Source: a virus. Taken from it: a stretch of DNA of 31,315 nucleotides. The notes under the pieces are model-generated. The model had not been told where the DNA came from. It searched no databases and was given only the letters and a program-made list of their open reading frames with translations. Every line of letters starts with the position of its first letter. Within the stretch, counting starts at the first letter, position 1. The DNA is taken from positions 1 to 31,315 of the IMG/VR virus record IMGVR_UViG_3300029987_000032; one strand, 5' to 3'. This document shows positions 2,502 through 31,315 of the stretch, piece by piece. A program made the position numbers and the translations under genes.

Positions 2502-2532
2502 AATATATAGTTTTTAATTGCCAACTGAATTG

Positions 2533-2549: not shown

Positions 2550-2579
2550 TATACTACTCTAACTTAGTACTAATGAATT

Positions 2580-2873: not shown

Positions 2874-2898
2874 TGTAATAATTGTTTATTGATATTAG

Positions 2899-2968: not shown

Positions 2969-3063
2969 GAACCATTTGTAATTGTTAGCTACCTAATAAT
3001 TATTTATCATTATTCTACATCAGCATTAGTATATTGAGATAATTATCCAAGCTATTCCAATCA

Positions 3064-3330
3064 CTACTTAATCGGCAAGCCAAGCAATTTAGCATAGCGA
3101 TTAAATACTTTAGTCTCATAAGGTTTGTCCTCTTCATAGACAACAGCACGTTTAAGCCATTTATCAAAGCATTCAGGACATATCCAATGATTAAGAACTG
3201 CAATAAATCGACCTTCATCAGAAGATTGATTACAATGATCACACACGCCAAATCCACCCCATTGTAGGCATTCAGTAGCTGTAGTGCTTATTACTTTGAA
3301 CCCTTTAGGATTCTCTACTCTGTGTGCCAT
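3064..3330 (-). CDS. Four-cysteine zinc-finger protein (88 aa)
   Basis: Two CxxC knuckles (Cys30-Cys33 in GVCDHC and Cys51-Cys54 in WICPEC) are separated by 17 residues, a classic four-Cys zinc-binding arrangement. The N-terminus is short and polar and the C-terminal 30 residues are charged and helical (FDKWLKRAVVYEEDKPYETK). The start overlaps the end of the upstream gene by 26 nt. Such small zinc proteins in phages often bind nucleic acid or host proteins; the target is unknown. Confidence 0.8.
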   Translation of the reverse strand: MAHRVENPKGFKVISTTATECLQWGGFGVCDHCNQSSDEGRFIAVLNHWICPECFDKWLKRAVVYEEDKPYETKVFNRYAKLLGLPIK

Positions 3331-3589
3331 CTGGTAAGTTTAATGGTGTTGTTAGACTTGTCATTAAATCCTCAAGAGTATCATAAGCATCTTTTGATTC
3401 TACTTCATGATATGAACCAGTGTGATACACCATAAGAACTTCTCCATCCGGAACAATTCTATTATTACTCATTAATACTTGGCAATCACCAGTGTATGTT
3501 GATATACCTAAGATTGGTTTCTTTTCAATCTTGTTGTTGTTCATAAAGAAGATAATATCTCCTTTAGCTCTATAATTTTGTGTTCCCAT
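3305..3589 (-). CDS. Hypothetical protein (94 aa)
   Basis: The start chosen gives MGTQNYRAKGDIIFFMNNNK, 4 nt after the stop of the XRE-type gene upstream. An ATG 33 nt further upstream would overlap that gene by 29 nt and adds a residue run (MNFKLILNNNS) that looks like read-through. The body is beta-prone with short strands (DIIFFMNNN, GISTYTGDCQVLMSNN, EVLMVYHTGSYHEVES), compatible with a small barrel. No family is recognised. Its 3' end overlaps the zinc-finger gene by 26 nt. Confidence 0.65.
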   Translation of the reverse strand: MGTQNYRAKGDIIFFMNNNKIEKKPILGISTYTGDCQVLMSNNRIVPDGEVLMVYHTGSYHEVESKDAYDTLEDLMTSLTTPLNLPDGTQSRES

Positions 3590-3593
3590 ACTG

Positions 3594-3809
3594 TTATTGT
3601 TTAATATTAATTTGAAGTTCAATTTTTAAAACTTTACAAATAGTAATGAATTTTTCAAAACTAACTTGCATATATCTGCCACCTCTTACTGAACTAACCA
3701 TACTTTCAGTTACTCCAGCTTTAGTAGCTATTTGTTTATTACTCATTCCGGACAATATTATTTCATTTCCAACAATATCATAAACTTGATTTACACTAGT
3801 AATAATCAT
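3594..3809 (-). CDS. XRE/Cro-type helix-turn-helix protein (71 aa)
   Basis: From the chosen start (MIITSVNQVYDIVGNE) the protein is a single HTH_3-type domain: the first helix of the motif is SNKQIATKAGV, the recognition helix is TESMVSSVRGGRYM, and the supporting helix is FEKFITICKVLKIEL. An upstream in-frame ATG would add 30 unrelated residues that overlap the membrane-protein gene. Proteins of this size are usually phage repressors or Cro-like switches. Candidate targets are the promoter and palindrome at 2533-2549, but this is inference. Confidence 0.8.
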   Translation of the reverse strand: MIITSVNQVYDIVGNEIILSGMSNKQIATKAGVTESMVSSVRGGRYMQVSFEKFITICKVLKIELQINIKQ

Positions 3810-3810
3810 A

Positions 3811-4146
3811 TTACAATATTTTGTTTTGTTGAATAAATCGAATAAAGAACCATGATATGCCAATGAATAGAAATATATCCCAATGAAATCCAAAAGCAAT
3901 CAAGTAAGTAATGATAGCTATCCATATACCATTACAATAGGGACACAAGCCCAATGGTTTGGCAATATAAGCCATAAAGGACACTAAACGTATATTCTTA
4001 CCATACTTCGATAAAAGTCTCTTATATCGAACGTATTTGTATAACCAGTCATGATACCAGTCGAATATCATTCCAAACTCTTGTATATGCTGAAAGCAAA
4101 GAGCAAGAGCAGCTACTGCAAATCCTATAAGAAGATACAGTAGCAT
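3811..4146 (-). CDS. Membrane protein with CPYC motif
   Basis: The product starts MLLYLLIGFAVAALALCFQH, a membrane segment, followed by a long basic, aromatic cytosolic loop (YHDWLYKYVRYKRLLSKYGK). Then come GLCPYCNGIW and two further hydrophobic segments (WIAIITYLIAFG, FLFIGISWFFI). The CxxC lies at a membrane boundary, as in some small membrane proteins that bind metal or form disulfides. An alternative ATG at 4173 adds nine residues and is preceded by AAAGAAG, but overlaps the upstream gene by 14 nt. Function is unknown. Confidence 0.7.
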   Translation of the reverse strand: MLLYLLIGFAVAALALCFQHIQEFGMIFDWYHDWLYKYVRYKRLLSKYGKNIRLVSFMAYIAKPLGLCPYCNGIWIAIITYLIAFGFHWDIFLFIGISWFFIRFIQQNKIL

Positions 4147-4159
4147 TATGATAGGGTCG

Positions 4160-4426
4160 TTAGAGCACAGCATTTTTGTATTCTTCTTTAGCCTTGTCAA
4201 ACTTAGTTCTTGCTTCTTCTTGTCGTTCAGTTGGTACTAAAACAATTTTAGAAGCCGGAATATAAGAACGATCATTAGTAGAATGTCTTGAGAAACGGAC
4301 ACGCAAATCATCATCACGATCAGGGACTGCAGTTACAACTAAAATACCAATGGAATTTACAGGATAGTCTTTTCCACAATTTGTACTGTGACACCTGTTC
4401 AAATAAATTAAATCACCTACTTGCAT
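4160..4426 (-). CDS. Small beta-barrel-like hypothetical protein (88 aa)
   Basis: Residues 1-65 read as a compact SH3-like or translation-protein-like barrel: MQVGDLIYLNR, SIGILVVTAVPDRDDDLRVRF and SYIPASKIVLVP, with regular strand-turn alternation. Residues 66-88 are a charged helix (RQEEARTKFDKAKEEYK). It is the first gene downstream of a promoter box at 4616-4623 with a leader of about 190 nt. The fold is guessed from the strand pattern; the function is unknown. Confidence 0.75.
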   Translation of the reverse strand: MQVGDLIYLNRCHSTNCGKDYPVNSIGILVVTAVPDRDDDLRVRFSRHSTNDRSYIPASKIVLVPTERQEEARTKFDKAKEEYKNAVL

Positions 4427-4601
4427 AATAATAAATGTTTTGTTGATTAATAAATAGTTTATATACGAGAATAAATAGACAATAATAGAAATGAGCTATC
4501 ATTTACACTGACCATACACGTCATTTCAACGCATAGAAAGCTTACTGTTGAACGAATAGCAATAGAATGACACTATGTATCATATCAATAAAAGAAAGTA
4601 G

Positions 4602-4618
4602 CTTAAACAAGCCCGCAA
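4602..4618 (-). repeat. Leader motif copy 1
   Basis: The minus strand reads TTGCGGGCTTGTTTAAG, directly after the -7 box at 4616-4623. The same GGCTTGTTTAAG, again preceded by TTGCGG but with 4 extra nt between, occurs at 5940-5960. It is likely the start of two related transcripts. Confidence 0.5.
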
Positions 4619-4623
4619 AAGTA
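4616..4623 (-). promoter_or_regulatory. Bacteroidota-type -7 promoter box (TACTTTTG)
   Basis: The minus strand reads TACTTTTG followed by CGGGCTTG. It matches TAnnTTTG and points toward the gene starting at 4426, leaving a leader of about 190 nt. No clear -33 TTTG was seen at the expected spacing. Confidence 0.5.
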
Positions 4624-4631
4624 ATCAAATC

Positions 4632-4826
4632 TTACAATATTGTATAGCATCTGATACACCGGATTACACCAATCACAACCACTATCAAATAATCTAATAT
4701 AATGTAGACCAATAGATTCAACACACTATACTCTATTGCAAGAAATGAATACTTAAGGAATACAACCAACTCACCATTACCACCACCATAACTAGACATA
4801 TCATACAACCACATATAACAGCGCAT
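4632..4826 (-). CDS. Doubtful small hydrophobic reading frame (64 aa)
   Basis: The frame runs from ATG to TAA and encodes MRCYMWLYDMSSYGGGNGEL followed by a hydrophobic stretch (YIILDYLIVVVIGVI). Its T/G-rich composition matches the non-coding leader sequences nearby, and the hydrophobicity may simply follow from that. It ends 8 nt before the promoter box at 4616-4623. It could be a small membrane protein or chance; kept at low confidence. Confidence 0.25.
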   Translation of the reverse strand: MRCYMWLYDMSSYGGGNGELVVFLKYSFLAIEYSVLNLLVYIILDYLIVVVIGVIRCIRCYTIL

Positions 4827-4910
4827 TCAACGCATTATAGGTATTATATTATTCTTATAGATAGAGAGAGAAGCATAGAGAGTAGGAGTGTACAGAGCCT
4901 GTTTGAACGT

Positions 4911-5183
4911 TTACTTTATACTATCCTTAGCCTTAAAATCATTGTAATAACAAGCTGGAATGCTGTATGTATGGAACGCTGAATCCTTGTAGTTATACAC
5001 GGTCATAAGGAATGTATAAGGCTTGTTATCAGAGCTTTTCTTATTCATTACAATAGAGTTATGAATAGCATAAGGATACATTATAAGAGGTCCAGTATTG
5101 TTTACTGGCGTTGTTTCAGAGCAGCTAGAAAGGACTATAACAACGATAGTCAATAACAATAAGAATAGATGTTTTGTGTTCAT
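4911..5183 (-). CDS. Phage-encoded lipoprotein (90 aa)
   Basis: The product starts MNTKHLFLLLLTIVVIVLSS and continues with Cys21: a signal peptide with lipobox LSSC, followed by SETTPVNN. The mature part is about 70 residues with aromatic and polar strands (PYTFLMTVYNYKDSAF). An upstream in-frame ATG would overlap the divergent promoter and add residues before the signal peptide, so it was rejected. Small phage lipoproteins commonly block superinfection by masking or inhibiting receptors; that is a family-level expectation, not shown here. It is divergent from the HTH gene at 5251. Confidence 0.8.
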   Translation of the reverse strand: MNTKHLFLLLLTIVVIVLSSCSETTPVNNTGPLIMYPYAIHNSIVMNKKSSDNKPYTFLMTVYNYKDSAFHTYSIPACYYNDFKAKDSIK

Positions 5184-5212
5184 TTTATATGAATTTAGAG
5201 TAAATATTGTGT

Positions 5213-5220
5213 TATCTTTG
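5213..5220 (+). promoter_or_regulatory. Bacteroidota-type -7 promoter box (TATCTTTG)
   Basis: A perfect TATCTTTG, followed by CGG, lies 30 nt upstream of the plus-strand HTH gene at 5251. It is one of three identical boxes in the window (also 6613 and 7907). It gives this gene its own promoter against the direction of its neighbours. Confidence 0.7.
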
Positions 5221-5222
5221 CG

Positions 5223-5247
5223 GCATCTACTCTCATGTAGTGCCAGC
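5223..5247. repeat. Flanking direct repeat, left copy
   Basis: The copy begins GCATCTACTCTCA, and these 13 nt are identical to the right copy at 5519; the rest is similar. This left copy can also fold, with GGCA and CTAC pairing with GTAG and TGCC, placing a hairpin in the leader just before the start at 5251. Confidence 0.6.
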
Positions 5248-5250
5248 AAA

Positions 5251-5466
5251 ATGAGTAAATTGAATGATAAAGTGTACTATGTAGCACACAATCTATTGAA
5301 TCACGACATTATTATATGTACAAGTAAGACCATGCTATCCAAGTTCGTTGGATGTAGTGATGATACTATACGTCGTAAATTATTGAGTGAACCAGTCCGT
5401 ATAAAGGAATGCATTGTCTGGACCGGAATAGGAATACAAAGGATAAAGAATAGAGGTAATTTTTAA
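5251..5466 (+). CDS. Small HTH-like DNA-binding protein on the opposite strand (71 aa)
   Basis: The start chosen (MSKLNDKVYYVAHNLLNHDI) follows a promoter box and leader hairpin; the longer frame would run through both. Residues 24-47 (TSKTMLSKFVGCSDDTIRRKLL) form a convincing HTH of homeodomain-like type: a helix, a turn at GC, and a recognition helix ending in RRKLL. The C-terminus is basic (IQRIKNRGNF). It is the only plus-strand gene in the left 6.4 kb and is bracketed by imperfect direct repeats, which may be its binding sites or the scar of an insertion. Likely a small regulator. Confidence 0.75.
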   Translation: MSKLNDKVYYVAHNLLNHDIIICTSKTMLSKFVGCSDDTIRRKLLSEPVRIKECIVWTGIGIQRIKNRGNF

Positions 5467-5518
5467 TTGATGGCTTCTACACCTTGTTGGGTGAAATGAG
5501 GTACCAATAGAATCAAAT

Positions 5519-5545
5519 GCATCTACTCTCACGAGTAACGCCACC
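5519..5545. repeat. Flanking direct repeat, right copy
   Basis: GCATCTACTCTCA is repeated here, followed by CGAGTAACGCCACC against TGTAGTGCCAGC in the left copy. It lies between the convergent ends of the HTH gene and the minus-strand gene ending at 5557, and does not overlap a promoter box. Confidence 0.6.
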
Positions 5546-5556
5546 AATTAGTAGTA

Positions 5557-5706
5557 TTATTTGCGTTTATTAGGACGCTTATGCGAACCTTTAGGAATAA
5601 AGATAACAGCAGTATCTCTCCATATAGGTCTTGTATGTTCCTGCTCATTTAATTGAGAATGGAAATTTATTAATCTCCAAACTTTGTCATTATATTTTGG
5701 TTTCAT
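5557..5706 (-). CDS. Small basic protein (49 aa)
   Basis: The chosen start gives MKPKYNDKVWRLINFHSQLN, 4 nt after the stop of the small membrane-protein gene upstream. The product is rich in Lys and Arg and ends in a basic tail (PKGSHKRPNKRK), as in nucleic-acid-binding or ribosome-associated small proteins. A longer in-frame extension to 5865 would read antisense-like hydrophobic sequence through the upstream gene and was rejected. Function is unknown. Confidence 0.6.
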   Translation of the reverse strand: MKPKYNDKVWRLINFHSQLNEQEHTRPIWRDTAVIFIPKGSHKRPNKRK

Positions 5707-5710
5707 AGTA

Positions 5711-5887
5711 TTATCTATTTCTATAATGAGTAATAGCTTCATGAACATGTAGTCCAAAGAAGAACAGTGCACCAATAAGAATTGCTCTACCATATATATA
5801 GGTATGAGTAGCAAAGAATATAAATGCAACACCGAAGATAAAGGCATATATGATATGCTCAGCAATATGTTTAAAAGAAGCTTTCAT
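5711..5887 (-). CDS. Small two-pass membrane protein (58 aa)
   Basis: The product begins MKASFKHIAEHIIYAFIFGV and has two hydrophobic segments: about residues 12-27 (IIYAFIFGVAFIFFA) and 33-48 (GRAILIGALFFFGLHV). It then ends in a polar His-containing tail (HEAITHYRNR). The repeated His residues are notable but not diagnostic. It is the first gene of a two-gene unit with 5557-5706 (4-nt gap). Its leader contains the repeated GGCTTGTTTAAG motif. Function is unknown. Confidence 0.65.
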   Translation of the reverse strand: MKASFKHIAEHIIYAFIFGVAFIFFATHTYIYGRAILIGALFFFGLHVHEAITHYRNR

Positions 5888-5939
5888 AAGAGTAAGTATT
5901 AATGTGTATATAATATAATGAACGCGCGCGTAGAGATCA

Positions 5940-5960
5940 CTTAAACAAGCCAGTCCGCAA
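5940..5960 (-). repeat. Leader motif copy 2
   Basis: The minus strand reads TTGCGG, then ACT, then GGCTTGTTTAAG, matching the leader at 4602-4618. It lies about 55 nt upstream of the gene starting at 5887. The preceding sequence (GAGTTGTTG) is only a weak match to a TAnnTTTG box. Confidence 0.45.
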
Positions 5961-5997
5961 CAACTCTAGCAAGCAAGTATTTCGAGGTAATAGTATT

Positions 5998-6026
5998 AAA
6001 AAAAAGGGAGACATTACATCTCCCTT
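5998..6026 (-). terminator. Rho-independent terminator after the gene at 6035
   Basis: An 8-bp perfect stem (AAGGGAGA / TCTCCCTT, 6004-6011 with 6019-6026) has a 7-nt loop. Toward the minus-strand 3' end it is followed by a run of T residues (A on the plus strand, 5998-6005). It sits 9 nt after the stop of the 6035-6397 gene. Confidence 0.88.
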
Positions 6027-6034
6027 GTTTGTTC

Positions 6035-6397
6035 TTACATGCTGTATTTGATAACACCACCTAAGCAGCTAATCTTAGCGCCTGCTTTAATCTTAATGAT
6101 ACCTTTGGCAGCTTCCTTCTTGTCAATGACTGTATCAAACCCACAAGAGTTCATACGAGTTACTTCTTGAGAGAAGTTGTCAGTCATTCCGGCGATAGCC
6201 ATGTTACACCAGATACGAAGGTCTTTGTTCGATACGTCAGCATCAGCTGCTTCGATTTTCACCAGCTTACCTGCTGCATTCTTTTGACTTCCGTCACGAT
6301 AAAATTGTCCAACGATTTCAAATGTTGTTGGTGCAATGTCAGTAAGATCGAATTTCAACTCAGCGGCTTTTGTCGCTACATACAATAATTTGCTCAT
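6035..6397 (-). CDS. Monocistronic protein of unknown function (120 aa), probably abundant
   Basis: The product starts MSKLLYVATKAAELKFDLTD and is soluble, with alternating strand-like segments (TTFEIVGQFYRDG, KLVKIEAADADV, KDLRIWCNMAIAG, GIIKIKAGAKISCLGGVI). Three cysteines are present (about residues 64, 85, 111). Codon use is more balanced, with more C- and G-ending codons than its neighbours, and it forms a single-gene unit with a strong terminator; both suggest high expression. It could be a structural or DNA-associated protein. No family is recognised. Confidence 0.8.
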   Translation of the reverse strand: MSKLLYVATKAAELKFDLTDIAPTTFEIVGQFYRDGSQKNAAGKLVKIEAADADVSNKDLRIWCNMAIAGMTDNFSQEVTRMNSCGFDTVIDKKEAAKGIIKIKAGAKISCLGGVIKYSM

Positions 6398-9263: not shown

Positions 9264-12200
9264 ATGGATATCTATTCTATTACGGTAGATGAAACAAGTG
9301 GAAACAATGAAGAAAACATAAACGCTAAAAATGCAATCTTTGAATTGGTATTGGATAATGTAATTGTCACTTACGAAGTGATATTTACTGAAAACGTAGA
9401 ACAATTTGAAGTTATTCTAAGTGATACAAATGTTACTTATATTGTAGAACCTTCAACTACATTTTTTACTAGCGGTATCGGTGATGCTCCAGACGAACAA
9501 CTCTATTGTCGAAGAAATGGACAATGGGTTTTATTTGCTCCAGTCGAAAATTTAGTTCTTGGCAATCTTCATATAAATGCTTACTATGGTGATTTAGGTA
9601 AGATTGCTTACGATCATTCACAAGCTAGTGGTAATCTACACCAATTGACATTCTCTGGTTTATTAAATAAACCAACAACAGTCCAAGGTTTTGGAATAAC
9701 AGATATTCCAACTTGGGCTCTTTCTACTTCTAAACCATCATATACTACTTCCGAAGTTACTGAAGCAGCTAATCTTTATTTTACATATAATAGAGTTCTT
9801 GGTACTAACCTTTCAGGATATGTAGCAACAGAAGGTACTATAAGTCCATCAGATACTGTTCTTACCGCGATACAGAAGCTTAGCTATAAAAACCATAATC
9901 CACTTACATTGGGTTCTTCTAATGGCCTTTCATTAGATAATCAACAATTATCATTGGGTCTTTCGTCTAGTACTTCAAATGGTGCACTAAGTAATGTAGA
10001 TTGGATTACTTTTAATAACAAATTGTCTCCATCATTAATGGGCGTAGCAAATGGTTTAGCTACATTAGGAAATGATACAAAAGTTCCTTTATCTCAACTT
10101 CCGACATCATTATTTGGTCAAGTGGATTATAAAGGATTTTGGGATGCATCAAATGGAACACCTTCATTACCTTCTATTCCAACATCTAATGGTGATTATT
10201 ATATAGTTTCGGTAGCCGGCACTACTACTATGGGTTCTGTTAGTGAATGGCAAGTTGGTGACTGGTTAATTGCTAATGGAAATACATGGGGTAAAGTTGA
10301 TAATACAGATGCAGTTATTTCTGTAAATGGTCACATAGGTGCTGTTGTATTGAATAAGTCAGATATAGGTCTTTCAAATGTTGCTAACATATTACAATGG
10401 AGTGTAAGTAATCATCCAACAACAGTTGCAGGATATGGAATTACAGATATATTAAATACTATACTTTCTGGTTATGTAGCAACATCAGGTACAATATCAA
10501 CAACTGATAGTATATTAACAGCATTACAAAAAGTAAGTTATGATAAACATGTTGCTGTTACTCTAGGAACAAGTAATGGTCTTTCTTTATCTGGTCAAGC
10601 AATATCATTGGGTTTATCTTCTACAATAACTACCGGAGCATTATCTTCTACTGATTGGAATATTTTCAATAATAAATTAAGTAATGCAACGCATACTGGT
10701 GATGTAATAGGTTCTACTGTACTAACTTTAGCAACAGTAAATGCTAATGTAGGTACTTTTAATAATATAACGGTTAATGGAAAAGGTTTAGTTACATCAG
10801 CAAGTAATGTTGCATATTCTAGTGATATACATTCAAATATTGTAGCATTGAATGCAGTAAGTGGTACTAATACTGGCGACCAAACTTTATCTAGTCTTGC
10901 CGGACAGCCACAATTGAATGGAATTGGATTTGTAAAGGCTAATGGAACCACCATAAGCTATGATAGCTCATCTTATTACTTGGCATCAAATCCAAATAGT
11001 TATATTAGTGGAATAACTAAGGAGAATGTAGAATCGGTTCTTACTGGACTGATAACTACTCATACGCATAACTACCTATCTAGTTTTACTGAGACAGATC
11101 CCGTATTTACGGCATGGAATAAATCTACTGGTATAAGCATTACTAAGTCACAAGTTAGTGATTTTCCAACTAATCTCAGTCAATTTAATAATAATCTTGG
11201 TAACTATGGTGGATGGATAACTGGTATCAATTCAGGAATGGTTACTACTGCTTTAGGTTATACTCCATGGAATACTGGTAATCATCCAACTACTTTATCT
11301 AACTATGGAATTACAGATGCAATACAGAATCAAAATAGTTCAGCGCAAGCTGCTAATAGTTATATAAATGGAGTTTATAGAACTTATCTATATAATTCTG
11401 CTGCATTTATAGGAAATTGGACTTCATCTAATATATGGGGAATAGGAGGTAGTGGCTCGGTAATTAGGTTAGGACAATGTAATACAGATGGTTCATTTAT
11501 ATCATCTACAAATACTAATCTACAAGTCGATGGAGCAGCAACTTTTGCATCTACAGTCAGTGCAACTAATTTTATAGGAAGTGGTAATGGGTTAACTAGT
11601 TTACCTAGTGGTATGTCTAATTATATTCAAAATCAAGGTACTTCTAATCAAGCAGCAAATATTAGGATAACTGGGGATATTGGATATGCTGCAAATATGG
11701 CTATATATCCTAGAACACAAGGAATTACTGACTGGTGGGTAAATAGATATATGACTGGGGAGGTTTTAAATACTTCAATTGGGTCAGCGGGAACAAATAT
11801 ATGGCAGTTGGGTATAATATCTTCGTCTGTATTTACCCCTAATGTAAAATTATATGGTGATGGTAGGGGAGTCTTTTTGTCAACAGTCAATGCTACTCAA
11901 CTTCAATCAACAATAGCAACTGGAACAGCACCATTAACTGTAGCATCTACTACTATGGTTAGTGATTTTAATGCTGATTTACTAGATGGACAGCATGGAA
12001 GTTATTATTCACCAACTATCCATACACATAGCTCTTTAAGCAACTCTGCAAGTATGCCAACATTGGATTTAAATACTCTTAATGTAGATAAGTTATTATC
12101 ATATTCAAGACTTGGTGCAGCATCAACTAATAAATTTACTACAGTAGATAATGCTAATGCAGTATTGACTATTGATACTTATAATGGCACTTCCACATAT

Positions 12201-13304
12201 TTCCATCAATTAGGATTCAGTAGCGATGGCAACATGTATCAAAGAAGGTCTACGGGTGCATGGAATACGGTTTGGACTAGTGGAAATTTTATTCCTTCTA
12301 ATTACTCATTGAATACTCACTCTCATGGTAATATAACTAATAGTGGATATATAGGTTCAATAGCATCTTTGCCAATTATAACTGGTACTGGCGGTATTTT
12401 ACAAGCGGGTTCCTTCAGTACAACAGCAGGTACATTTTGTCAAGGAAATGATTCAAGACTTTCAGATGCTCGTGTAGCATCTGATGTTTCTGCATGGGCT
12501 AAATCAGCGACAAAACCTAGTTACTCATGGTCAGAAATTAGTATCCGGCCAACTACAGTTATCGGTTATGGAATTACCGATCTATTCTCACAAGTAATTA
12601 CAGGCTTTACGGTTGGTGCAAATAGCACTGTTTTGAACACCGATACTTTAGAATCAGCGATTGAAAAATTGCAAGGTCAGATCAATAACAAACAAGCGTC
12701 AGGCTCTTATTCATTAACTACACATGTTCATGGAAATATAACTAGTGGAGGATTGATAGGAACTGTTGCTAGTTTACCTATTATAACAGGTACTGGAGGT
12801 ATCTTACAAGTCGGTTCCTTTGGTACAATAGCAGGAACATTTTGTCAAGGTAATGATTCAAGGTTAGCCACACAAACTACTATAACGGGTAATGCTGGTA
12901 CTGCTACTATATTGCAAACAGCTAGAACTATTTGGGGACAATCCTTTAATGGTAGTGCAAATATTAGTGGTGCAATTACTGGAGCGACTACAGGAACATT
13001 TAGTGGTGACGTAAGTGCAACTAATTTTAATTTATCATCAGATAGAACCTTAAAGACTAACATAAGACCAATACTAAAAGACTATAGCTCTATTGACTTA
13101 GTCGAGTTTAATTTTAAAAATAATTTAGACGAACTTAGGTTTGGTGTTATAGCGCAAGATTTGCTAAGTAGCGGATTTGAAGAATTTGTAGTCGGAGATA
13201 TAGAAGGAGAATATAAAGTGAAATATTTTGATTTATTGGTAGCCAAATTAGCTAACGCAGAATCAAGAATAAAACAATTGGAGGATAAGTATGGCTGTTC
13301 CTGA
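9264..13304 (+). CDS. Tail fibre/receptor-binding protein with C-terminal S74 self-cleaving chaperone
   Basis: A 1346-residue fibre. Residues 1-60 are an attachment-type beta domain. The long shaft contains tail-fibre repeats with the GYGITD motif (near 142, 390, 680 and 1101), often preceded by HPTT or RPTT, and two duplicated modules (178-255/398-473 and 1015-1066/1151-1202). The C-terminus carries a Peptidase_S74 intramolecular chaperone: Ser1259-Asp-Arg with Lys1264 (SDRTLKTNI), then FGVIAQDLL and a coiled-coil tail (LANAESRIKQLEDK). In this family the chaperone trimerises the fibre and then cuts itself off near the Ser-Asp. The product binds the host surface. Low Cys and high Ser/Thr/Asn fit a fibre. 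Confidence 0.93.
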   Translation: MDIYSITVDETSGNNEENINAKNAIFELVLDNVIVTYEVIFTENVEQFEVILSDTNVTYIVEPSTTFFTSGIGDAPDEQLYCRRNGQWVLFAPVENLVLGNLHINAYYGDLGKIAYDHSQASGNLHQLTFSGLLNKPTTVQGFGITDIPTWALSTSKPSYTTSEVTEAANLYFTYNRVLGTNLSGYVATEGTISPSDTVLTAIQKLSYKNHNPLTLGSSNGLSLDNQQLSLGLSSSTSNGALSNVDWITFNNKLSPSLMGVANGLATLGNDTKVPLSQLPTSLFGQVDYKGFWDASNGTPSLPSIPTSNGDYYIVSVAGTTTMGSVSEWQVGDWLIANGNTWGKVDNTDAVISVNGHIGAVVLNKSDIGLSNVANILQWSVSNHPTTVAGYGITDILNTILSGYVATSGTISTTDSILTALQKVSYDKHVAVTLGTSNGLSLSGQAISLGLSSTITTGALSSTDWNIFNNKLSNATHTGDVIGSTVLTLATVNANVGTFNNITVNGKGLVTSASNVAYSSDIHSNIVALNAVSGTNTGDQTLSSLAGQPQLNGIGFVKANGTTISYDSSSYYLASNPNSYISGITKENVESVLTGLITTHTHNYLSSFTETDPVFTAWNKSTGISITKSQVSDFPTNLSQFNNNLGNYGGWITGINSGMVTTALGYTPWNTGNHPTTLSNYGITDAIQNQNSSAQAANSYINGVYRTYLYNSAAFIGNWTSSNIWGIGGSGSVIRLGQCNTDGSFISSTNTNLQVDGAATFASTVSATNFIGSGNGLTSLPSGMSNYIQNQGTSNQAANIRITGDIGYAANMAIYPRTQGITDWWVNRYMTGEVLNTSIGSAGTNIWQLGIISSSVFTPNVKLYGDGRGVFLSTVNATQLQSTIATGTAPLTVASTTMVSDFNADLLDGQHGSYYSPTIHTHSSLSNSASMPTLDLNTLNVDKLLSYSRLGAASTNKFTTVDNANAVLTIDTYNGTSTYFHQLGFSSDGNMYQRRSTGAWNTVWTSGNFIPSNYSLNTHSHGNITNSGYIGSIASLPIITGTGGILQAGSFSTTAGTFCQGNDSRLSDARVASDVSAWAKSATKPSYSWSEISIRPTTVIGYGITDLFSQVITGFTVGANSTVLNTDTLESAIEKLQGQINNKQASGSYSLTTHVHGNITSGGLIGTVASLPIITGTGGILQVGSFGTIAGTFCQGNDSRLATQTTITGNAGTATILQTARTIWGQSFNGSANISGAITGATTGTFSGDVSATNFNLSSDRTLKTNIRPILKDYSSIDLVEFNFKNNLDELRFGVIAQDLLSSGFEEFVVGDIEGEYKVKYFDLLVAKLANAESRIKQLEDKYGCS
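9795..10028 (+). repeat. Tail-fibre internal module B, copy 1
   Basis: Encodes a segment LSGYVATEGTISPSD...NGLSLDNQQLSLGLSS that recurs at 10457-10682. Protein similarity is clear while the nucleotides have diverged, which points to an old duplication. Confidence 0.8.
10457..10682 (+). repeat. Tail-fibre internal module B, copy 2
   Basis: Second copy of the module at 9795-10028: LSGYVATSGTISTTD...NGLSLSGQAISLGLSS, ending in the shared FNNKLS. Confidence 0.8.
12307..12462 (+). repeat. Tail-fibre internal module A, copy 1
   Basis: Encodes HGNITNSGYIGSIASLPIIT followed by GTGGILQAGSF and GTFCQGNDSRL; repeated at 12715-12868. Confidence 0.85.
12715..12868 (+). repeat. Tail-fibre internal module A, copy 2
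   Basis: Second copy of the module at 12307-12462: HGNITSGGLIGTVASLPIIT, GTGGILQVGSF and GTFCQGNDSRL, again with many silent or neutral differences. Confidence 0.85.
13280..13284 (+). promoter_or_regulatory. Strong Shine-Dalgarno site before 13291
   Basis: GGAGG lies 6 nt before the ATG at 13291, inside the end of the fibre gene. Most genes here start behind A/T-rich sequence without such a site, so this one fixes the start and suggests re-initiation. Confidence 0.75.
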
Positions 13305-25136: not shown

Positions 25137-25820
25137 ATGTCGGTAGCAATAATTGATATGTATAAAGATTTCCTTGCTATAGTAAGGAAGTCACGAGTAG
25201 GAACTGTTTCACCATTAGAGTTCTCAGTAATTTTAGGTTTAGCGACCGAAGAAGTTATTTCAAATAAGATTGATAATTTTGAATTGAATAAAAAGTTTGC
25301 AATACAGCTTTTGCCAATTACGCAAGGACCTAAATTATTTACTGGTACTTTATCGGAAACAAGCAGTAGCGATCGTTATAAAGCGTATTCATTTGTGTTA
25401 CCGGAAGATTGTCGATTGGTTGCTAGATTATCTGCAGAAATATCTGGTCTGAAAGAAGCCAAATGTAATCCACTAACTTCAAACGAACTGACCACTGTTT
25501 TGAATGGTATATTTAGCAAACCAACGACTTCTAATTGTTATTACAGTTTAAGTCAAGATATCGTTGAAACTAAACCGGTAAAAAATGTTTTGGTTTATGT
25601 ACCAAATATTACTATTGGTGATGGTTATCCTAAATTTAGAATAAGTTATGTTGTCAACCCGCCGGTTATTACTGAAATGGAGACTACTAATACTAAGGAA
25701 AGTATATTTGACCGTGAAGTATGTTCTGAAATTATCACTACGGCATCCCGTATGTATTTGGAAGGTATTCAAGATAGTCGATATCAAACTTTCAACAATG
25801 AATTAAAATTCAAACATTAA
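25137..25820 (+). CDS. Probable head-tail connector/ring protein (227 aa)
   Basis: The N-terminus is a helical bundle (IDMYKDFLAIVRKSRVG, EFSVILGLATEEVISNK), the middle is beta-rich (KNVLVYVPNITIGDG, PKFRISYVVNPPVI), and the C-terminus is again helical (EVCSEIITTASRMYLEGIQD). This helix-sandwich-helix pattern with a final portal-binding helix is common in head-tail adaptors that stack under the portal. The position between MCP and tail genes fits. Identity as a specific ring protein is an inference. Confidence 0.65.
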   Translation: MSVAIIDMYKDFLAIVRKSRVGTVSPLEFSVILGLATEEVISNKIDNFELNKKFAIQLLPITQGPKLFTGTLSETSSSDRYKAYSFVLPEDCRLVARLSAEISGLKEAKCNPLTSNELTTVLNGIFSKPTTSNCYYSLSQDIVETKPVKNVLVYVPNITIGDGYPKFRISYVVNPPVITEMETTNTKESIFDREVCSEIITTASRMYLEGIQDSRYQTFNNELKFKH

Positions 25821-25832
25821 TAATTAAATATT

Positions 25833-26777
25833 ATGAGTAATCTTATAAGAGGTGCGCAAGACTACCTATTGAATACTATCGGACCAAAGGAATTTGGTAT
25901 GTACTACCAGGGAGATGTAGTAACCGGTATTAAACATCTTGTATGTAAAAAATATGGTATTGATATTCCATTTGATGGAGATACTACCATTGTAAAGAAA
26001 ACATCTGCTGTTGGCGCTGCTGCAGTAATCACTCTTACTCCTGCATTTGTTGCTAAGACTACCGGTGATCAACGTATTATTGAAATTGAAATCACTCGTC
26101 AACCATTGTATGATGGCGCCGGTAATCATCAGTTTCCAGTAAGTCATACTTATGGTTATAAGTTGACCAACACGGCTACTTTGACTACAGATAAACAAAC
26201 TGTTGTTGATGGTCTTGTTGAAGCAATCAATGCTGATGTCATGAGAACTTCGAATGCTGTAAACAGTGGTGCTTGTGTAGTAGCTAGTCGTACTGGTGCT
26301 GCCGGTACATCTGCTCTTGTTCTTACTGCAAAAGAAAAAGGACAACCAATTACTGTTCGTATTTTCGATGAAAACTTTACTCAGGTGCTTACTACTAAGC
26401 CTAAGAAAGATACATTGACAAACGATATGTTGAGTCGTATCTTTATGATTAAAGCAGAAAACGAAGGACAACGTGTTGTAATGCCTACTGAGGGTGTTGA
26501 TTACTGTTGTATTACTATTGCCAGCAAAACACTTGGTTATGAAAATGTATCTGCAAGTGCTTTTGTAAAACGCGAACAAGTTTACAACTTCTATATGCCA
26601 TTAGCATTGACTGATGATGTATTGTTTGCTGATATCGCTGTTGCTTCTGCAGGTATTGTTCCATCTATGGCAGATGTTGTAGTTGCTGCTAAATCATTTG
26701 ATAATTACCTTGCATACAATGTATCTCCAGTAGATGCACTTACTGCACGTGTAGTAGCATTGGAAACAGCACCTTAA
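25833..26777 (+). CDS. Capsid decoration/auxiliary or structural protein (314 aa)
   Basis: An almost all-beta protein with Ala/Thr/Val-rich strands (SAVGAAAVITLTPAFVAKTT, GTSALVLTAKEKGQPI, ASAGIVPSMADVVVAAKS), no Cys cluster and no enzyme motif. Codon use resembles that of the MCP, with many C-ending codons, suggesting high copy number. It is the last gene before the strong internal terminator at 26799-26837, so it shares the high-expression transcript of the capsid genes. An auxiliary capsid protein or major tube-type protein are both possible. Confidence 0.7.
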   Translation: MSNLIRGAQDYLLNTIGPKEFGMYYQGDVVTGIKHLVCKKYGIDIPFDGDTTIVKKTSAVGAAAVITLTPAFVAKTTGDQRIIEIEITRQPLYDGAGNHQFPVSHTYGYKLTNTATLTTDKQTVVDGLVEAINADVMRTSNAVNSGACVVASRTGAAGTSALVLTAKEKGQPITVRIFDENFTQVLTTKPKKDTLTNDMLSRIFMIKAENEGQRVVMPTEGVDYCCITIASKTLGYENVSASAFVKREQVYNFYMPLALTDDVLFADIAVASAGIVPSMADVVVAAKSFDNYLAYNVSPVDALTARVVALETAP

Positions 26778-26798
26778 TAATTAGTTTCAATTAAATCC

Positions 26799-26837
26799 AA
26801 AAAGGGTAGGTAGGATATGTCTACTTACCCTTTTTTT
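26799..26837 (+). terminator. Strong internal terminator within the virion gene block
   Basis: A 15-bp stem with one G-T pair (26799-26813 with 26821-26835), a 7-nt loop and seven T residues (26831-26837). It follows the 25833 gene by 21 nt. Neck and tail genes continue on the same strand, so this should reduce their transcription compared with capsid genes. Confidence 0.9.
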
Positions 26838-26849
26838 AATATCAGTAAT

Positions 26850-27509
26850 ATGATAACACTTGAAAAAATAGTTGAAAGTTTAAAACTTCAATTAAAACCA
26901 CATCTTACGGACGACCAGATAGTACATGATGAATGGTTGATAGAAATGATCAATACTTCAAGAGCGGCAATGTGTCGTTCTTTATATGTTTCCGGGGAAG
27001 TCTTTACAGCATTCTTTCAAAAGATAACTGGTAATGTAGAAACTCTTGATCTCGATTATAAGAAGTTTACTATGCCATCAAAACTAATGGAAGGAATAGG
27101 AAGAAGAAATGTTCGTTATTTTGGTCCTATAGGTACAAAGAATCCGGATTTTCATTATTGTTCTTTCGAAGAGTTGGTAAACTATGAATCACATCGCTTT
27201 GGCATTGACCAACCCGCTTTTGCGAACCTTGGTGACATCTTACAGATAAAAGCACCCAATATGTCCGCAATAGAATTACATGCCGTTATAGAAGCTCCAA
27301 ATTCGTTAGCTGACTACAGTTATGAAACATCAAGTTATCCTATTGGAGAAAACAATGAAAGACAGTTAGAGATAATTACTTTTCAGCATATTGCAGCTAA
27401 GTTAGGAATGCCAGTAGACTTTGCTAATAATGGTATTGATGAAACAAAGAATATTCCGGTAAAGCAACCACAACAACAGCAACAACAACAAGATAATGGG
27501 GGACAATAA
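26850..27509 (+). CDS. Probable neck/ring protein with Gln-rich tail (219 aa)
   Basis: The chosen start (MITLEKIVESLKLQLKPHLT) is the first ATG after the terminator hairpin. An in-frame ATG at 26817 lies inside the hairpin loop and adds only hairpin-encoded residues (MSTYPFFNISN), so it was rejected. The N-terminus is helical, the middle beta-rich (GNVETLDLDYKKFTMPSKLM, DILQIKAPNMSAIELHAVIE). The C-terminus is a low-complexity Gln tract built from CAA repeats. Position and fold pattern fit a head-to-tail adaptor. The poly-Gln end is probably flexible and may vary in length between strains. Confidence 0.7.
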   Translation: MITLEKIVESLKLQLKPHLTDDQIVHDEWLIEMINTSRAAMCRSLYVSGEVFTAFFQKITGNVETLDLDYKKFTMPSKLMEGIGRRNVRYFGPIGTKNPDFHYCSFEELVNYESHRFGIDQPAFANLGDILQIKAPNMSAIELHAVIEAPNSLADYSYETSSYPIGENNERQLEIITFQHIAAKLGMPVDFANNGIDETKNIPVKQPQQQQQQQDNGGQ

Positions 27510-27511
27510 TT

Positions 27512-28495
27512 ATGTATCTAGTAACTACAGAACAGTTTGAAGTTGATGGTGAATTATTCTATGAAGGTGTTTCTTGGAAAGATTATCGAAAAGCAACAAA
27601 AATAGAAAATCAAAAAGTTATTAAACATGGTAGATTATATAATTGGTATGCTGCAACAGATCCTAGAGGGATTGCCGCAATAGGTTGGCATATTCCAACA
27701 AAAGAAGATTTTATTATACTTATAAATTATGTAGGAGGATTACTTATAGCTGGAAAACATTTAAAATCAAATGATATTTCTAAATGGAATATTGCAGGTG
27801 ATAATACATTTAATTTTAATGCTTTTGGTTCAGGAGTAGGATTTAATAATACTTATTTTGACATATTGTATAGAACTATATTATGGGCTTCTACTAATGA
27901 TAATCCCGATAATCAAGGGGACGCATTAATATTATCATCTAATAAAGATTCTGCTGAAATTTGGAATGCATATTACAATACATTAGCATCAATTAGATTA
28001 ATAAAAGATAATAATATTAATGAAGGAGATATTATAATTGATGGTGATACATATAATTCAATAACTATTGGTAATCAAGTATGGTTACAACAAAATATAT
28101 CTACAACAAAATATAACAATGGTGATGATATAGACTATAGTATAAATGAATTATTTGGGGCAGTATCAATGTATAATAATGATGAGAATAATGTTTATGA
28201 AACTACATTAATTGAAATTATATCTGATGATTTTGTTATTACATATAATGGAATTGATTATGTTTTCCCAAAAGATAAAGTTATTGAAACACCAAGATTT
28301 ACTCGTGAGCAGAATATTCCATTTGGAGAATATCAATATCGAACACATTCAGATAAGCATACAGAATTTTTCGAACCGGTAAAAGAACATTTTGGTATTG
28401 ATATGAAAGAGAATTACGCGGCTCAGTTTCGTGATGGTATAAATCCACATAAAGATATCAATGGAAGTATCTTCAAAGAAAACCCGGATCAATAA
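27512..28495 (+). CDS. Neck-region protein with inserted, circularly permuted FISUMP domain (327 aa)
   Basis: Residues 1-36 and about 232-327 look like one small structural protein (MYLVTTEQFEVDGELFYEG; FVITYNGIDYVFPKDKVIE; GEYQYRTHSDKHTEFFEPV). Between them lies a FISUMP (fibrobacter-succinogenes major paralogous) domain in swapped order. Residues 40-166 carry the second part (GRLYNWYAATDPRG, GWHIPTKEDF, final SIRLIKD). Residues 174-230 carry the first part (DGDTYNSITIGNQVWLQQN, then GAVSMYNNDENNVY). In the normal domain the second part follows the first. The insert is more AT-rich than its flanks. It is likely a surface-exposed decoration acquired by the phage; function is unknown. Confidence 0.75.
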   Translation: MYLVTTEQFEVDGELFYEGVSWKDYRKATKIENQKVIKHGRLYNWYAATDPRGIAAIGWHIPTKEDFIILINYVGGLLIAGKHLKSNDISKWNIAGDNTFNFNAFGSGVGFNNTYFDILYRTILWASTNDNPDNQGDALILSSNKDSAEIWNAYYNTLASIRLIKDNNINEGDIIIDGDTYNSITIGNQVWLQQNISTTKYNNGDDIDYSINELFGAVSMYNNDENNVYETTLIEIISDDFVITYNGIDYVFPKDKVIETPRFTREQNIPFGEYQYRTHSDKHTEFFEPVKEHFGIDMKENYAAQFRDGINPHKDINGSIFKENPDQ

Positions 28496-28964
28496 AAAGG
28501 TAAAAGAATTTAGGAAAGAGGAATTTGATTATCATGATGTAGTCAATGAGAATAATAAATTTGGTGTACGTAAAACGGTTTACATAGACACTCTTTTTAG
28601 ACCTCGTTTATCTCACGTGACCTTTTCTACCAATACACATCCGAAAAGCCAAATTATAAGAGGTATGGCCTATAAGGTGTTCTTTGCATACATATCTATA
28701 ATTGTTGAAGAACTCTTTAAGGGAAATACAATCAAAATCAATAAAGTCGGATTGATAAGTTTGCTAACAATGACCTCAAGTACTAAATATCAAGGTCGAC
28801 AAAAAGATAGAGAACGTTCAAAAAGAAAAGGATTTTATACTCGTATCAATTGCGATTATTTCTTTTCTCAGGATAAAGTAAGATATGGTTTTCCTTATGC
28901 ATCATTTGGGAAATTCTATAAGAAGAAATTACACTCATTAGAAGATAATAATATAAAATTTTAA
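28461..28964 (+). CDS. HU/IHF-like protein (167 aa)
   Basis: The basic N-terminus (SSKKTRINKKVKEFRKEEF) is followed by a domain with the HU/IHF pattern: helices (GMAYKVFFAYISIIVEELFK), then GNTIKINKVGLISLL matching the G-x-x-V-x-L-x-x-F/V-G strand, then a basic arm region (RQKDRERSKRKG) and a C-terminal FYKKKLHSL. Crassvirales carry IHF-like genes in this part of the structural block. It may bend DNA at packaging or be a packaged protein. The start overlaps the previous gene by 35 nt; no later ATG is available before the domain. Confidence 0.65.
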   Translation: MEVSSKKTRINKKVKEFRKEEFDYHDVVNENNKFGVRKTVYIDTLFRPRLSHVTFSTNTHPKSQIIRGMAYKVFFAYISIIVEELFKGNTIKINKVGLISLLTMTSSTKYQGRQKDRERSKRKGFYTRINCDYFFSQDKVRYGFPYASFGKFYKKKLHSLEDNNIKF

Positions 28965-28966
28965 TC

Positions 28967-29323
28967 ATGGCAACAATCGACAAAACAAAGTATGCTGCAG
29001 CTAGTTCTGCTAAATCTACGACACCCGCAAAAGGTTATACTAAAGAACAAGTTCAACAAGCGCAAGGTAAATCATCTGTTCCAGCTAAAACATCACCACC
29101 GGCTAGTCCTCAAATGTCAGAAGAGCAAACTGCTCAAATGATACAAGAGATTATCAAAATGCTTCAACAAGGTGCTAAGCCGGAAGATATTCTTGCACAG
29201 TTAGTACAAGGTGGTATTCCACAAGAACAGGCACAACAGTTGATTCAGCAAGCTACTGATCAATTACAATCACAAGGACAAGCACAACCAGCGGCTCCTG
29301 CAGCAGTACCAATGCCACAATAA
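28967..29323 (+). CDS. Low-complexity Gln/Ala/Pro-rich protein (118 aa)
   Basis: The N-terminal half is disordered (AAASSAKSTTPAKG, KTSPPASPQ). Residues 50-100 are two amphipathic helical repeats rich in Gln (MIQEIIKMLQQGAKPEDILA, LVQGGIPQEQAQQLIQQATD). The C-terminus is Ala/Pro-rich. Similar helical-repeat, Gln-rich proteins occur in neck and tail regions of phages as adaptors or cargo, but no family is recognised. It is followed closely by a 59-residue gene. Confidence 0.7.
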   Translation: MATIDKTKYAAASSAKSTTPAKGYTKEQVQQAQGKSSVPAKTSPPASPQMSEEQTAQMIQEIIKMLQQGAKPEDILAQLVQGGIPQEQAQQLIQQATDQLQSQGQAQPAAPAAVPMPQ

Positions 29324-29325
29324 TT

Positions 29326-29505
29326 ATGAGTAAGCGTTCGAAAGCACACGACGAAGAGTACTATCAGAAACTGAAAGAGGTAGTAGAGGATAGCAATAAA
29401 GAGTACAGACCAAATGAGTTGTATGTAAAGACAGCAAGGAATGTACATGGAGTTTTTGCTTATCAACATATAGAATTAAAATCTAATAAAGATGAATCCG
29501 AATAA
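29326..29505 (+). CDS. Small basic/acidic protein (59 aa)
   Basis: The frame begins MSKRSKAHDEEYYQKLKEVV and ends in a charged tail (SNKDESE). The ATG follows the preceding stop by 2 nt, and its end overlaps the next gene by 14 nt, so it belongs to the operon. The first half is one charged helix and the second half has short strands (NVHGVFAYQHIELKS). Function is unknown. Confidence 0.65.
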   Translation: MSKRSKAHDEEYYQKLKEVVEDSNKEYRPNELYVKTARNVHGVFAYQHIELKSNKDESE

Positions 29506-30133
29506 TAAATATTTTACAGCAGCCGAGATTTATGTTCGGTTGCTGTCTGCATTTCCAATAAAAGGTACTCAAATAAGTAAGATACAAGTGATGCGATGGT
29601 GTAGTGAAGTCGTTGCAGAATATCTTACTGATCCAGTAGGATTAATTTTGAATAAAAAAATACAGATTGGAGAACCTACTTCTGATGATGATCCTACTTT
29701 AATCATTCGTTCTAATCGCGCTCTAGTACCGCCAGATGTATTTAAATTGGAAAATGTATTTGATGAAGCTGGAAACAAAGTAAAGAATAGTACTTATCAA
29801 GGAGAGTACATACAATTCAGTACTACTAGAACACCTCAGAAGTGCTTTATTGATTACTATTCATTGCCAGTAGATACTCTTGGTTTTCCATTGATAAAAC
29901 GTGGATATGAAACAGCATGTTATGCTTATTGCATTAAAAAGATGCATGAAGAAGATGCCAGTGTTATACCACCACGTATACAACAATGGAGATGGTTACA
30001 GATGTGTCAGGATTCTGATTACGAAATTCAAGCAGCTTATGTTAGTTGGGGAGATTTATCAAACAATGACGTTGAGGAAATCCATAATTATATTATTAGT
30101 CCGGAATACAAATTCATTACAAAAAGACATTAA
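29492..30133 (+). CDS. Probable tail-tube/head-completion adaptor protein (213 aa)
   Basis: The N-terminal helices (YFTAAEIYVRLLSAFP, ISKIQVMRWCSEVVAEYL) and the C-terminal helices with aromatics (RGYETACYAYCIKKMHEEDA, IQQWRWLQMCQDSDYEIQAA) bracket a beta-rich core (LIIRSNRALVPPDVFKLENV, EYIQFSTTRTPQKCFIDYYS). The layout fits the gp4-like tail-tubular adaptors of short-tailed phages. The gene directly downstream is a stabilisation-type protein, as in Crassvirales. It would join portal and tail hub. The assignment rests on position and pattern. Confidence 0.65.
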   Translation: MNPNNKYFTAAEIYVRLLSAFPIKGTQISKIQVMRWCSEVVAEYLTDPVGLILNKKIQIGEPTSDDDPTLIIRSNRALVPPDVFKLENVFDEAGNKVKNSTYQGEYIQFSTTRTPQKCFIDYYSLPVDTLGFPLIKRGYETACYAYCIKKMHEEDASVIPPRIQQWRWLQMCQDSDYEIQAAYVSWGDLSNNDVEEIHNYIISPEYKFITKRH

Positions 30134-30135
30134 TT

Positions 30136-31315
30136 ATGCAACATAATAATACGTTTCTAGGTGGTATGAAAAGAGGTATTGATAATACGTTAATGCCACA
30201 GAATAGTTATACCTATATGCTCAATGGAAGTATTGTTTCAAAAGATGAACATGGATATACAATTACTAATATTCGTGGAACAAAGAGTATTACTTCTTTT
30301 GCTACAAATGAAGTTCCTGTTGGTTCAGTATCATTCAATGGAATACTTTATATTGTTACTCATGCAACTAATACTGATAAGATTAATTTCTATTCATTTA
30401 AGGGTAGTGATGGTACTGCATGGGTAGAAGAAACACTTCTTATTATCCCTAATGGCCCTGATGATGCATTATCAATAAATCAATCAGTACTTGGTTTCTC
30501 CAAAGGAAAGTTACTTGAGATAATTGCTAAGAATAGTTATGATGGTTCTGTTGATTTGTATATCTGTGATGGATTGAATAAAAACATTATTATCAATACC
30601 GGTATTGATCAACAAGGAAAGAAAACACTTCGTTCATATACTAATCTTGACGATGTACTTCTGTTTGTTCATCAGAAGAGTATTACTAATGTTCCTGATG
30701 TTGTAGGACAAGTAAAAGACAATGGAACTATGAAGCCTGGTACTTACTTCTTCTATATTCGCTATGAAGATGAATCATTGAATACAACACCATTCATTAA
30801 AGAAGTAGGTCCATTCTATATCCATAGTGGTTCTAAAGAGTTTAATAGCTCTTCGGGAGTATTGAATACTGGCGAAGAAAGAGTATCAAAACAAGTACAA
30901 TTACAAATTACAAATACCGACTCAAACTATAAAAAGGTTTCTGTCGGTTTTGTCCATTATTATGGTACATCAGATACTTTGAGTAAATCAATGCAACTTA
31001 TCAGTAAGTCTACAAAGATTGTCAATAGTGTAGCCACTGTAGTATTCAATGGAAACAATGTTGTTCAGGATATTACTTTTGAAGAACTATTCAAAGACAA
31101 TATGGCATTTGACATTGCTGAAACGGAAGTTCAACATGAAGATAGATATTATGGAGCTAATTGGAAAGGCCGGGCAATAGATTATGCTATGCTCAAAGAA
31201 ATGGCTTCTCTTATCATACCACATGCTGTAATCAAAGATGAAAGTCGTTTCGATAAAGTATATGATCAGACAGCAAAATACTTTGAATATATGGAAGATG
31301 AAATCTATCCTATGG
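30136..31315 (+). CDS. Tail stabilisation-type protein, partial (3' end outside window)
   Basis: The frame is open from ATG at 30136 to the window edge, 393 codons. The product starts MQHNNTFLGGMKRGIDNTLM, followed by beta-propeller-like repeats (YTYMLNGSIVSKDEHGYTIT, GILYIVTHATNTDKINFYSF, LLEIIAKNSYDGSVDLYICD). A conserved N-terminal F.GGM..D.........Y..A.N pattern of this type marks the large tail-hub or stabilisation proteins (P22 gp10-like) of crAss-like phages. It completes the neck below the tube adaptor. Identification is moderate because only the first part is visible. Confidence 0.75.
   Translation, partial: MQHNNTFLGGMKRGIDNTLMPQNSYTYMLNGSIVSKDEHGYTITNIRGTKSITSFATNEVPVGSVSFNGILYIVTHATNTDKINFYSFKGSDGTAWVEETLLIIPNGPDDALSINQSVLGFSKGKLLEIIAKNSYDGSVDLYICDGLNKNIIINTGIDQQGKKTLRSYTNLDDVLLFVHQKSITNVPDVVGQVKDNGTMKPGTYFFYIRYEDESLNTTPFIKEVGPFYIHSGSKEFNSSSGVLNTGEERVSKQVQLQITNTDSNYKKVSVGFVHYYGTSDTLSKSMQLISKSTKIVNSVATVVFNGNNVVQDITFEELFKDNMAFDIAETEVQHEDRYYGANWKGRAIDYAMLKEMASLIIPHAVIKDESRFDKVYDQTAKYFEYMEDEIYPM

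Follow-up and report, generated by a model that had tools for sequence, protein, structure and literature searches.

The 31,315-nt viral contig analysed here (IMG/VR record IMGVR_UViG_3300029987_000032, positions 1–31,315; hereafter, the window) contains a gene in which the two parts of a FISUMP domain seem to stand in the wrong order, which raises the question of whether this is a genuine circularly permuted domain, how it came to lie within another protein and what it might do there. FISUMP domains are abundant in Bacteroidota but little studied, and host recognition by crAss-like phages is poorly known. The open reading frame (27512–28495, plus strand, as are all of its parts and the neighbouring genes described below) begins with ATG at 27512 and encodes a 327-aa product that exceeds the curated cut-offs of both family models, with 75.6 bits against 33.9 for PF09603 (Pfam Fib_succ_major) and 79 bits against 41.65 for TIGR02145 (NCBIfam). 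Each profile matches in two stretches. The best stretch aligns residues 30–165 with PF09603 positions 41–187 (E = 7.9e-21) and residues 29–166 with TIGR02145 positions 36–176 (E = 6.9e-22). Both of these alignments place the later part of the profile at the front of the protein. FISUMP membership is therefore met by score and by the presence of both halves, whereas the canonical order, with the N-terminal part first, is not.

Separate HMMs for the first half (A) and the second half (B) of the domain were trained on FISUMP sequences from bacterial genomes only. B scored 102.8 bits at residues 39–166 and A scored 44.1 bits at residues 176–224, compared with best scores of 11.5 (B) and 7.0 (A) among 2,000 shuffles of the 327-aa protein, and each half is full-length against its own HMM. 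Because these scores lie far above the best shuffles, the reversed order of the FISUMP halves is real. The normally second B part (GRLYNWYA ... SIRLIKD; residues 39–166; Pfam positions 41–187) occupies 27626–28009. A closing linker delimited by the HMM boundaries (residues 167–175; 28010–28036) then connects the natural C terminus of B to the natural N terminus of A, and the normally first A part (DGDTYNSITIGNQVW ... YNNDENNVY; residues 176–230; Pfam positions 1–46) follows at 28037–28201. A first-pass annotation of the sequence had proposed a permuted FISUMP domain, second part before first, cut at the junction between the parts. Pfam, NCBIfam and the half-specific HMMs agree on this order, and the cut was found at YNND..Y / (Y)G.LYNWYA. 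Four longer IMG/VR contigs carry the same gene or a close allele, with profile positions 40–187 followed by 1–46/50 in a single open frame. Two outcomes that the annotation had named as fatal to its proposal did not occur: both segments match FISUMP, and no further FISUMP match was found in the four longer contigs, so the canonical order is not restored by a neighbouring domain. Identical copies in three other contigs, together with two diverged alleles of the same architecture, exclude an assembly artefact.

The permuted domain is flanked by an N-terminal segment (residues 1–36; 27512–27619) and a C-terminal segment (residues 231–327; 28202–28492) of a host protein. Among related loci fetched by MCP (n = 18), three insert-bearing alleles were distinguished: the window type, the L007/L008/L018 type and the L009/L011–L014 type. 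Four further loci (L015, L016, L020 and L022; aligned MCP part 76–80% identical) share the same two neighbouring genes, and the gene between these encodes 119 aa, one flank running directly into the other. The N-terminal flank aligns with residues 1–25 of this homologue, and the C-terminal flank is 52.6% identical to the uninterrupted homologue over 78 residues. As the closest relatives that lack the domain have an uninterrupted gene of 119 aa in this place, a true insertion into that protein is the natural reading of the sequence comparison, although gain and loss are not polarized by these data. These empty homologues bear out the earlier suggestion of an insertion into an unrelated small protein. 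The insert was also said to be more AT-rich, which is correct but modest (26.3% GC versus 33.6% for the whole window); 3.6% of the 582-bp tiles from 6000 to the window end are as GC-low. The host protein itself had no match in annotated phages, solved structures (by sequence), PHROGs or Pfam. A weak PHROG match of the C-terminal flank (phrog_8526, E = 0.031) was not reproduced with the empty 119-aa form, and SH3/Tudor-like structural matches of the host part (Z 2.2–3.7) were too weak for use.

The surrounding gene order identifies the type of phage. The block runs from terminase, portal and MCP through small genes to a weakly HU-like gene, CrAss_Ring_1 and a muzzle-position gene, and the phage fits the Crassvirales, its ring 1, MCP and portal genes being arranged as in that group. 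PHROG matches support the MCP (1.8e-27) and the portal (3.2e-41), and the MCP matches are mostly to crAss-like phages at approximately 23% identity. Upstream, a 230-aa gene of the structural block without a family match (26817–27509) adjoins the host gene in both inserted and empty relatives. Downstream, a weakly HU-like gene of 167 aa (28461–28964; Pfam HU-HIG, E = 0.0093, below its cut-off) overlaps the 3′ end of the host gene, and a ring-1-like tail barrel protein is encoded at 29492–30133 (Pfam CrAss_Ring_1, 27.6 bits versus a cut-off of 27). Rfam found nothing in 26000–31315. Elsewhere in the window, a 1,346-aa protein (9264–13304) has minor-tail/tail PHROG matches and a C-terminal Peptidase_S74 chaperone, and is likely the tail fibre of this phage.

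The tail-hub collar is the docking place of fibres, so a displayed binding domain would make sense there, but no homology supports this assignment. The window gene order is as in phi-crAss001, in which the same interval holds the tail hub (gp38–gp39) and ring gp40, followed by HU/IHF gp42, ring 1 gp43 and muzzle gp44 (PMC10172136). With a three-sequence profile, the host protein gave no HHalign match to phi-crAss001 gp33–gp43; however, most of the genes were missed too, even those in clear synteny, so this search had no power to exclude homology, which divergence could conceal. In cr272_1, gp32 is the positional equivalent of the host gene, and its sequence looks unrelated. The earlier label of a phage neck-region protein is thus supported by gene order only, and not by any detectable sequence match to the neck or tail proteins of phi-crAss001.

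Whether the two halves form one domain was addressed by structure prediction. Given an alignment with natural permuted homologues, AlphaFold2 predicted residues 31–230 of the window protein at pLDDT 90–98 (ten-residue means) and residues 264–287 and 320–327 at low confidence. The model shows one compact domain, and not the two separate partial domains that would have contradicted the annotation. For L137, a free-standing permuted domain from another phage, pLDDT was 91.4 and pTM 0.89, so the relative placement of A and B is confident. In the predicted domain, A would give the first strands that B lacks. One predicted strand (residues 25–37; 27584–27622) leads into the domain and another (residues 229–245; 28196–28246) follows it. 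Their pairing as an antiparallel ribbon is inferred from DSSP strand ranges without inspection of coordinates; both new ends would then enter a single β-ribbon, and the domain would stand on a stalk. The first-pass annotation had argued that permutation brings the ends together and so suits loop insertion. This argument is not specific, because the natural N and C termini of C-type-lectin folds are already close together; permutation alters which side is tethered and does not create end adjacency.

Structural comparisons point to the same fold class, albeit weakly. The best VIA-align match of the window model was Bd2740 of Bdellovibrio (8oks; Z 5.5, 83 residues), after which the leading matches were mostly C-type-lectin domains, all of them weak. 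These matches cover model residues 39 to approximately 170 and begin about 16–22 residues inside the known domains, which would leave the first strand to be provided by A. On these weak matches, B would be a lectin-type domain without its first strand, which A can supply. The L137 model matched the C-terminal domain of Legionella Lcl (8q4e) with Z 4.9 and an rmsd of 2.3 over 81 residues. Two predicted viral structures cover the whole L137 model with the chain order unchanged, namely A0A1B1IUD2 (TMq 0.88, 214 columns) and A0A6J5N676 (TMq 0.83), whereas A0A6J5LVS1 matched over only 135 columns, approximately the size of B. Foldseek against solved structures returned nothing at E ≤ 0.001, and the window protein had no significant Pfam match to PF07603.

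The feature is not a singleton, as permuted FISUMP recurs across viral contigs. With a permuted-order query, bacterial genome contigs yielded 80 loci and viral contigs 47. Non-redundant ORFs from the bacterial contigs comprised 85 AB, 5 ABAB and 3 BA, compared with 9 AB and 26 BA + BABA from the viral contigs (Fisher p = 6e-16 for viral versus bacterial chain order). Because this query was biased towards permuted forms, the bacterial count errs on the conservative side. With a canonical-order query, viral contigs still yielded mostly permuted forms (42 BA plus multiples versus 26 AB). Combined, the non-redundant viral ORFs are 67 of permuted type and 35 of canonical type, against 3 permuted and 90 canonical ORFs from bacterial genomes; these are counts among retrieved hits and not a census. 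In the viral contigs retrieved, FISUMP ORFs are more often permuted than canonical. This confirms the annotation and widens it: a known domain exists in a permuted variant, and its chain order differs strongly between viral and bacterial sequences. We found no published description of a permuted FISUMP domain, and none in the open-licence literature on Fib_succ_major, phage lectins, DUF1566 or receptor-binding proteins.

The cut point and a short linker are found again across the 67 viral ORFs, the B–A linker being 8–15 residues in most permuted phage ORFs. Many of these ORFs are small genes with nothing else (including some of 210–264 residues), and A ends ≤10 residues from the C terminus in 30 of the 67, a C-terminal tip. 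The domain also lies inside longer phage proteins, its unrelated host proteins ranging from 178-residue ORFs to one of 2,005 residues, and an annotated genome, that of Rhodobacteraceae phage LS06-2018-MD05, carries it in gp88. Tandem arrays in permuted register, (BA)3 and (BA)2, were seen in large phage proteins of L176 (1,763 aa), L202 (2,005 aa) and L127 (587 aa). Tandem permuted FISUMP occurs likewise in L134, where adjacent permuted-FISUMP genes run from 2030 to 6247 and on into L135 in one frame, with one stop codon and a few bases between each and the next; this row has the look of adhesin paralogues expanded into an array. In Bacteroidales, a protein that begins with a lipoprotein-like leader (L098:3173–4597) carries a C-terminal permuted FISUMP domain in a genome whose other FISUMP matches are 13 canonical, near full-length ones, so the form is not exclusive to phages. 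Another permuted ORF from a bacterial contig, L075, may be phage-derived given its weak PHROG matches. In a sample of 60 genomes from the order of Maribellus, the genus of the L080 genome, only near full-length canonical forms occur among the top-scoring matches listed, which is supportive only. ABAB ORFs of 626 residues with the same domain coordinates were seen in a Bacteroidales MAG contig (L059:3569–5434) and a viral contig (L179:2942–4819), a sharing that suggests a prophage or a misassigned contig.

The origin of the permuted form was examined in a tree of A + B rearranged to canonical order (190 columns). In a quick tree, most permuted rows group together, with 4 order changes versus a shuffled mean of 25.2; taken by itself, this tree places L138 and L009 among canonical rows. 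When all permuted rows were constrained to one clade, the likelihood was 14.1 above that of the free search (AU p = 0.64). A single origin is thus not rejected, but remains unproven because the alignment is short and saturated, and we claim neither one origin nor several firmly. The textbook explanation for circular permutation is a tandem duplication that later loses its outer halves, and arrays suited to it exist as ABAB in bacteria (5 ORFs) and BABA in phages. The likeliest route would be duplication to A1-B1-A2-B2 and then loss of A1 and B2. The permutation is probably old and spread among phages, and would not have been made in the window lineage. Opinion could fall evenly on either side of a broader reading, in which permuted FISUMP/C-type-lectin domains have one origin and a fixed cut point and have become a standard adhesin cassette that phages can exchange, with the canonical order retained in bacteria; that reading would cover the occurrences as an own small gene, as a C-terminal tip, in tandem arrays and as loop insertions in virion proteins. 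The alignment of 21 permuted domains was too diverse to serve in a new scan.

Comparison of alleles bears on what the insert does. Between the window and L008, dS is 1.2–1.3 in the insert, compared with 0.09–0.42 in neighbouring genes and 0.27 and 0.64 in the N-terminal and C-terminal flanks, respectively. The insert dS, far above that of the neighbouring genes, indicates that the insert was exchanged by recombination between otherwise close phages. Across the three crAss-like alleles, divergence is far greater in the insert than in the flanks and is greatest in the lectin ligand-loop region. A hypervariable stretch in B (residues 104–155; 27821–27976), defined by entropy and allele identity, falls in this region. 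In the 21 permuted domains, mean entropy was 2.0–3.2 bits in the 10-residue blocks from 104 to 163, peaking at 3.1–3.2 bits at window residues 134–153, versus 1.2–1.6 bits in most framework blocks, and alleles share 0–4 identical residues per 15 at residues 106–150. The region of residues 104–163 is the ligand face in lectin-fold adhesins, as established for Mtd and TvpA. Two other genes of the structural block, at 25137–25820 (227 aa) and 26817–27509 (230 aa), are approximately 67–69% identical to those of L009 (dS 1.1–1.6), whereas the MCP is 97% identical (dS 0.37). That these genes are far more diverged than the MCP points to mosaic exchange along the structural block.

By sequence comparison alone, it is established that both halves are FISUMP-homologous, that their order is reversed with the cut at the A/B junction and that relatives lack the insert. 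We consider it likely that the gene encodes a complete permuted FISUMP (C-type-lectin-like) domain in a strand-to-strand loop of a small structural-block protein, forming a stalked, displayed and exchangeable adhesin. Such an adhesin would bind a host-surface ligand through its variable lectin face, and phages would exchange alleles of the domain; both steps are inferred, with no ligand or virion data. The most likely reading is that an adhesin domain open to exchange has been grafted onto the phage neck or tail, and the ligand, the virion location and the identity of the host protein remain unproven. The structural matches are weak (Z ≤ 5.5), no experiment addresses virion presence or ligand, and sequence searches with the host protein detect no homologue of known function.

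The best-surviving alternative, unlikely but not to be set aside, is that the domain is a structural spacer or a stabilizing virion decoration that binds no ligand, its variation reflecting relaxed constraint. No ligand is known, relatives manage without the domain, and between the window and L009 pN and pS are nearly equal in B (0.451 and 0.443; MCP, 0.019 and 0.290), which fits relaxed as well as diversifying selection. However, the framework motifs are conserved while a single contiguous stretch varies, the insert alone is exchanged between otherwise close phages, and the lectin-fold relatives Bd2740, Lcl and Mtd are adhesins. Domain swapping, in which A of one subunit completes the B of its neighbour in a ring or trimer without any intrachain permutation, appears less plausible still. 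It would suit crassviruses, whose neck and tail proteins are oligomeric, and a tail-hub subunit of phi-crAss001 does extend into the adjacent hub (PMC10172136). Against it, the prediction for the monomer is highly confident, most members have a short linker, and one swapped oligomer is unlikely to serve unrelated host proteins of 178 to 2,005 residues.

There is very little to recommend the insert as a target of a diversity-generating retroelement (DGR), even though it is hypervariable in the region expected and DGRs that target Fib_succ_major proteins have been described, both from microbiomes and from Bacteroides phages (PMC4159848, PMC8143477). The four insert-bearing contigs of 61–86 kb (records possibly incomplete) yielded no reverse transcriptase; of 19 records that carry other permuted domains, a single one has this enzyme, and there the template and variable repeats concern another gene; and allele differences span the whole of B, gaps included. 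L141 (6302–6617 and 6500–7681) contains a DGR with a reverse transcriptase and a 125-nt variable/template repeat pair that is 80% identical, 21 of its 25 differences being at template A; the variable repeat lies at the 3′ end of a 429-aa gene and not in the nearby permuted FISUMP gene. That the halves are two partial FISUMP fragments of a decayed tandem array, which deletion in the bacterial ABAB proteins (5 ORFs) could yield, is scarcely credible, given that both are full-length against the HMMs, 67 viral ORFs repeat the cut point and short linker, AlphaFold2 is confident, including for the free-standing form, and the frame stays open in three alleles of divergent sequence.

If the insert is an exchangeable adhesin domain, it is a testable candidate specificity module for crAss-like phages. 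The viral/bacterial split (67:35 versus 3:90, permuted to canonical) amounts to a natural experiment on the tether point of a lectin-fold domain, and the permuted form offers a grafting site already exploited in many natural proteins. Permuted FISUMP could serve as a marker for phage adhesin genes in metagenomes; the form is easily missed, because standard domain searches give ordinary FISUMP hits in two pieces.

Several known systems resemble this one in part. The window protein shares conserved motifs with the FISUMP family (PF09603, TIGR02145) and scores well above its cut-offs, but its halves are swapped, with a short linker bridging the natural termini and new termini at YNND..Y / G.LYNWYA, whereas canonical members end in S[VI]RCxKD. 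The variable proteins of DGRs (Mtd, TvpA and the Fib_succ_major targets of Bacteroides phages) are likewise phage-borne lectin folds with ligand-loop variation; the window domain, by contrast, is internal, permuted and exchanged whole, without a detected reverse transcriptase or template repeat. In phi-crAss001, the tail-hub interval (gp38–gp40) is the place that the host gene matches, ahead of the HU/IHF-like, ring-1 and muzzle-position genes, and the empty host form (119 aa) is similar in length to the THB gp39 (114 aa). The C-terminal domain of Legionella Lcl (8q4e; DUF1566, PF07603) has a related lectin-type fold to which the B part aligns, but in canonical order. Finally, the tip domain of Bd2740 is, like the proposed role of the window domain, a C-type-lectin-fold adhesin tip on a phage-like fibre, although it is not permuted, is trimeric and sits at the C terminus of its fibre.
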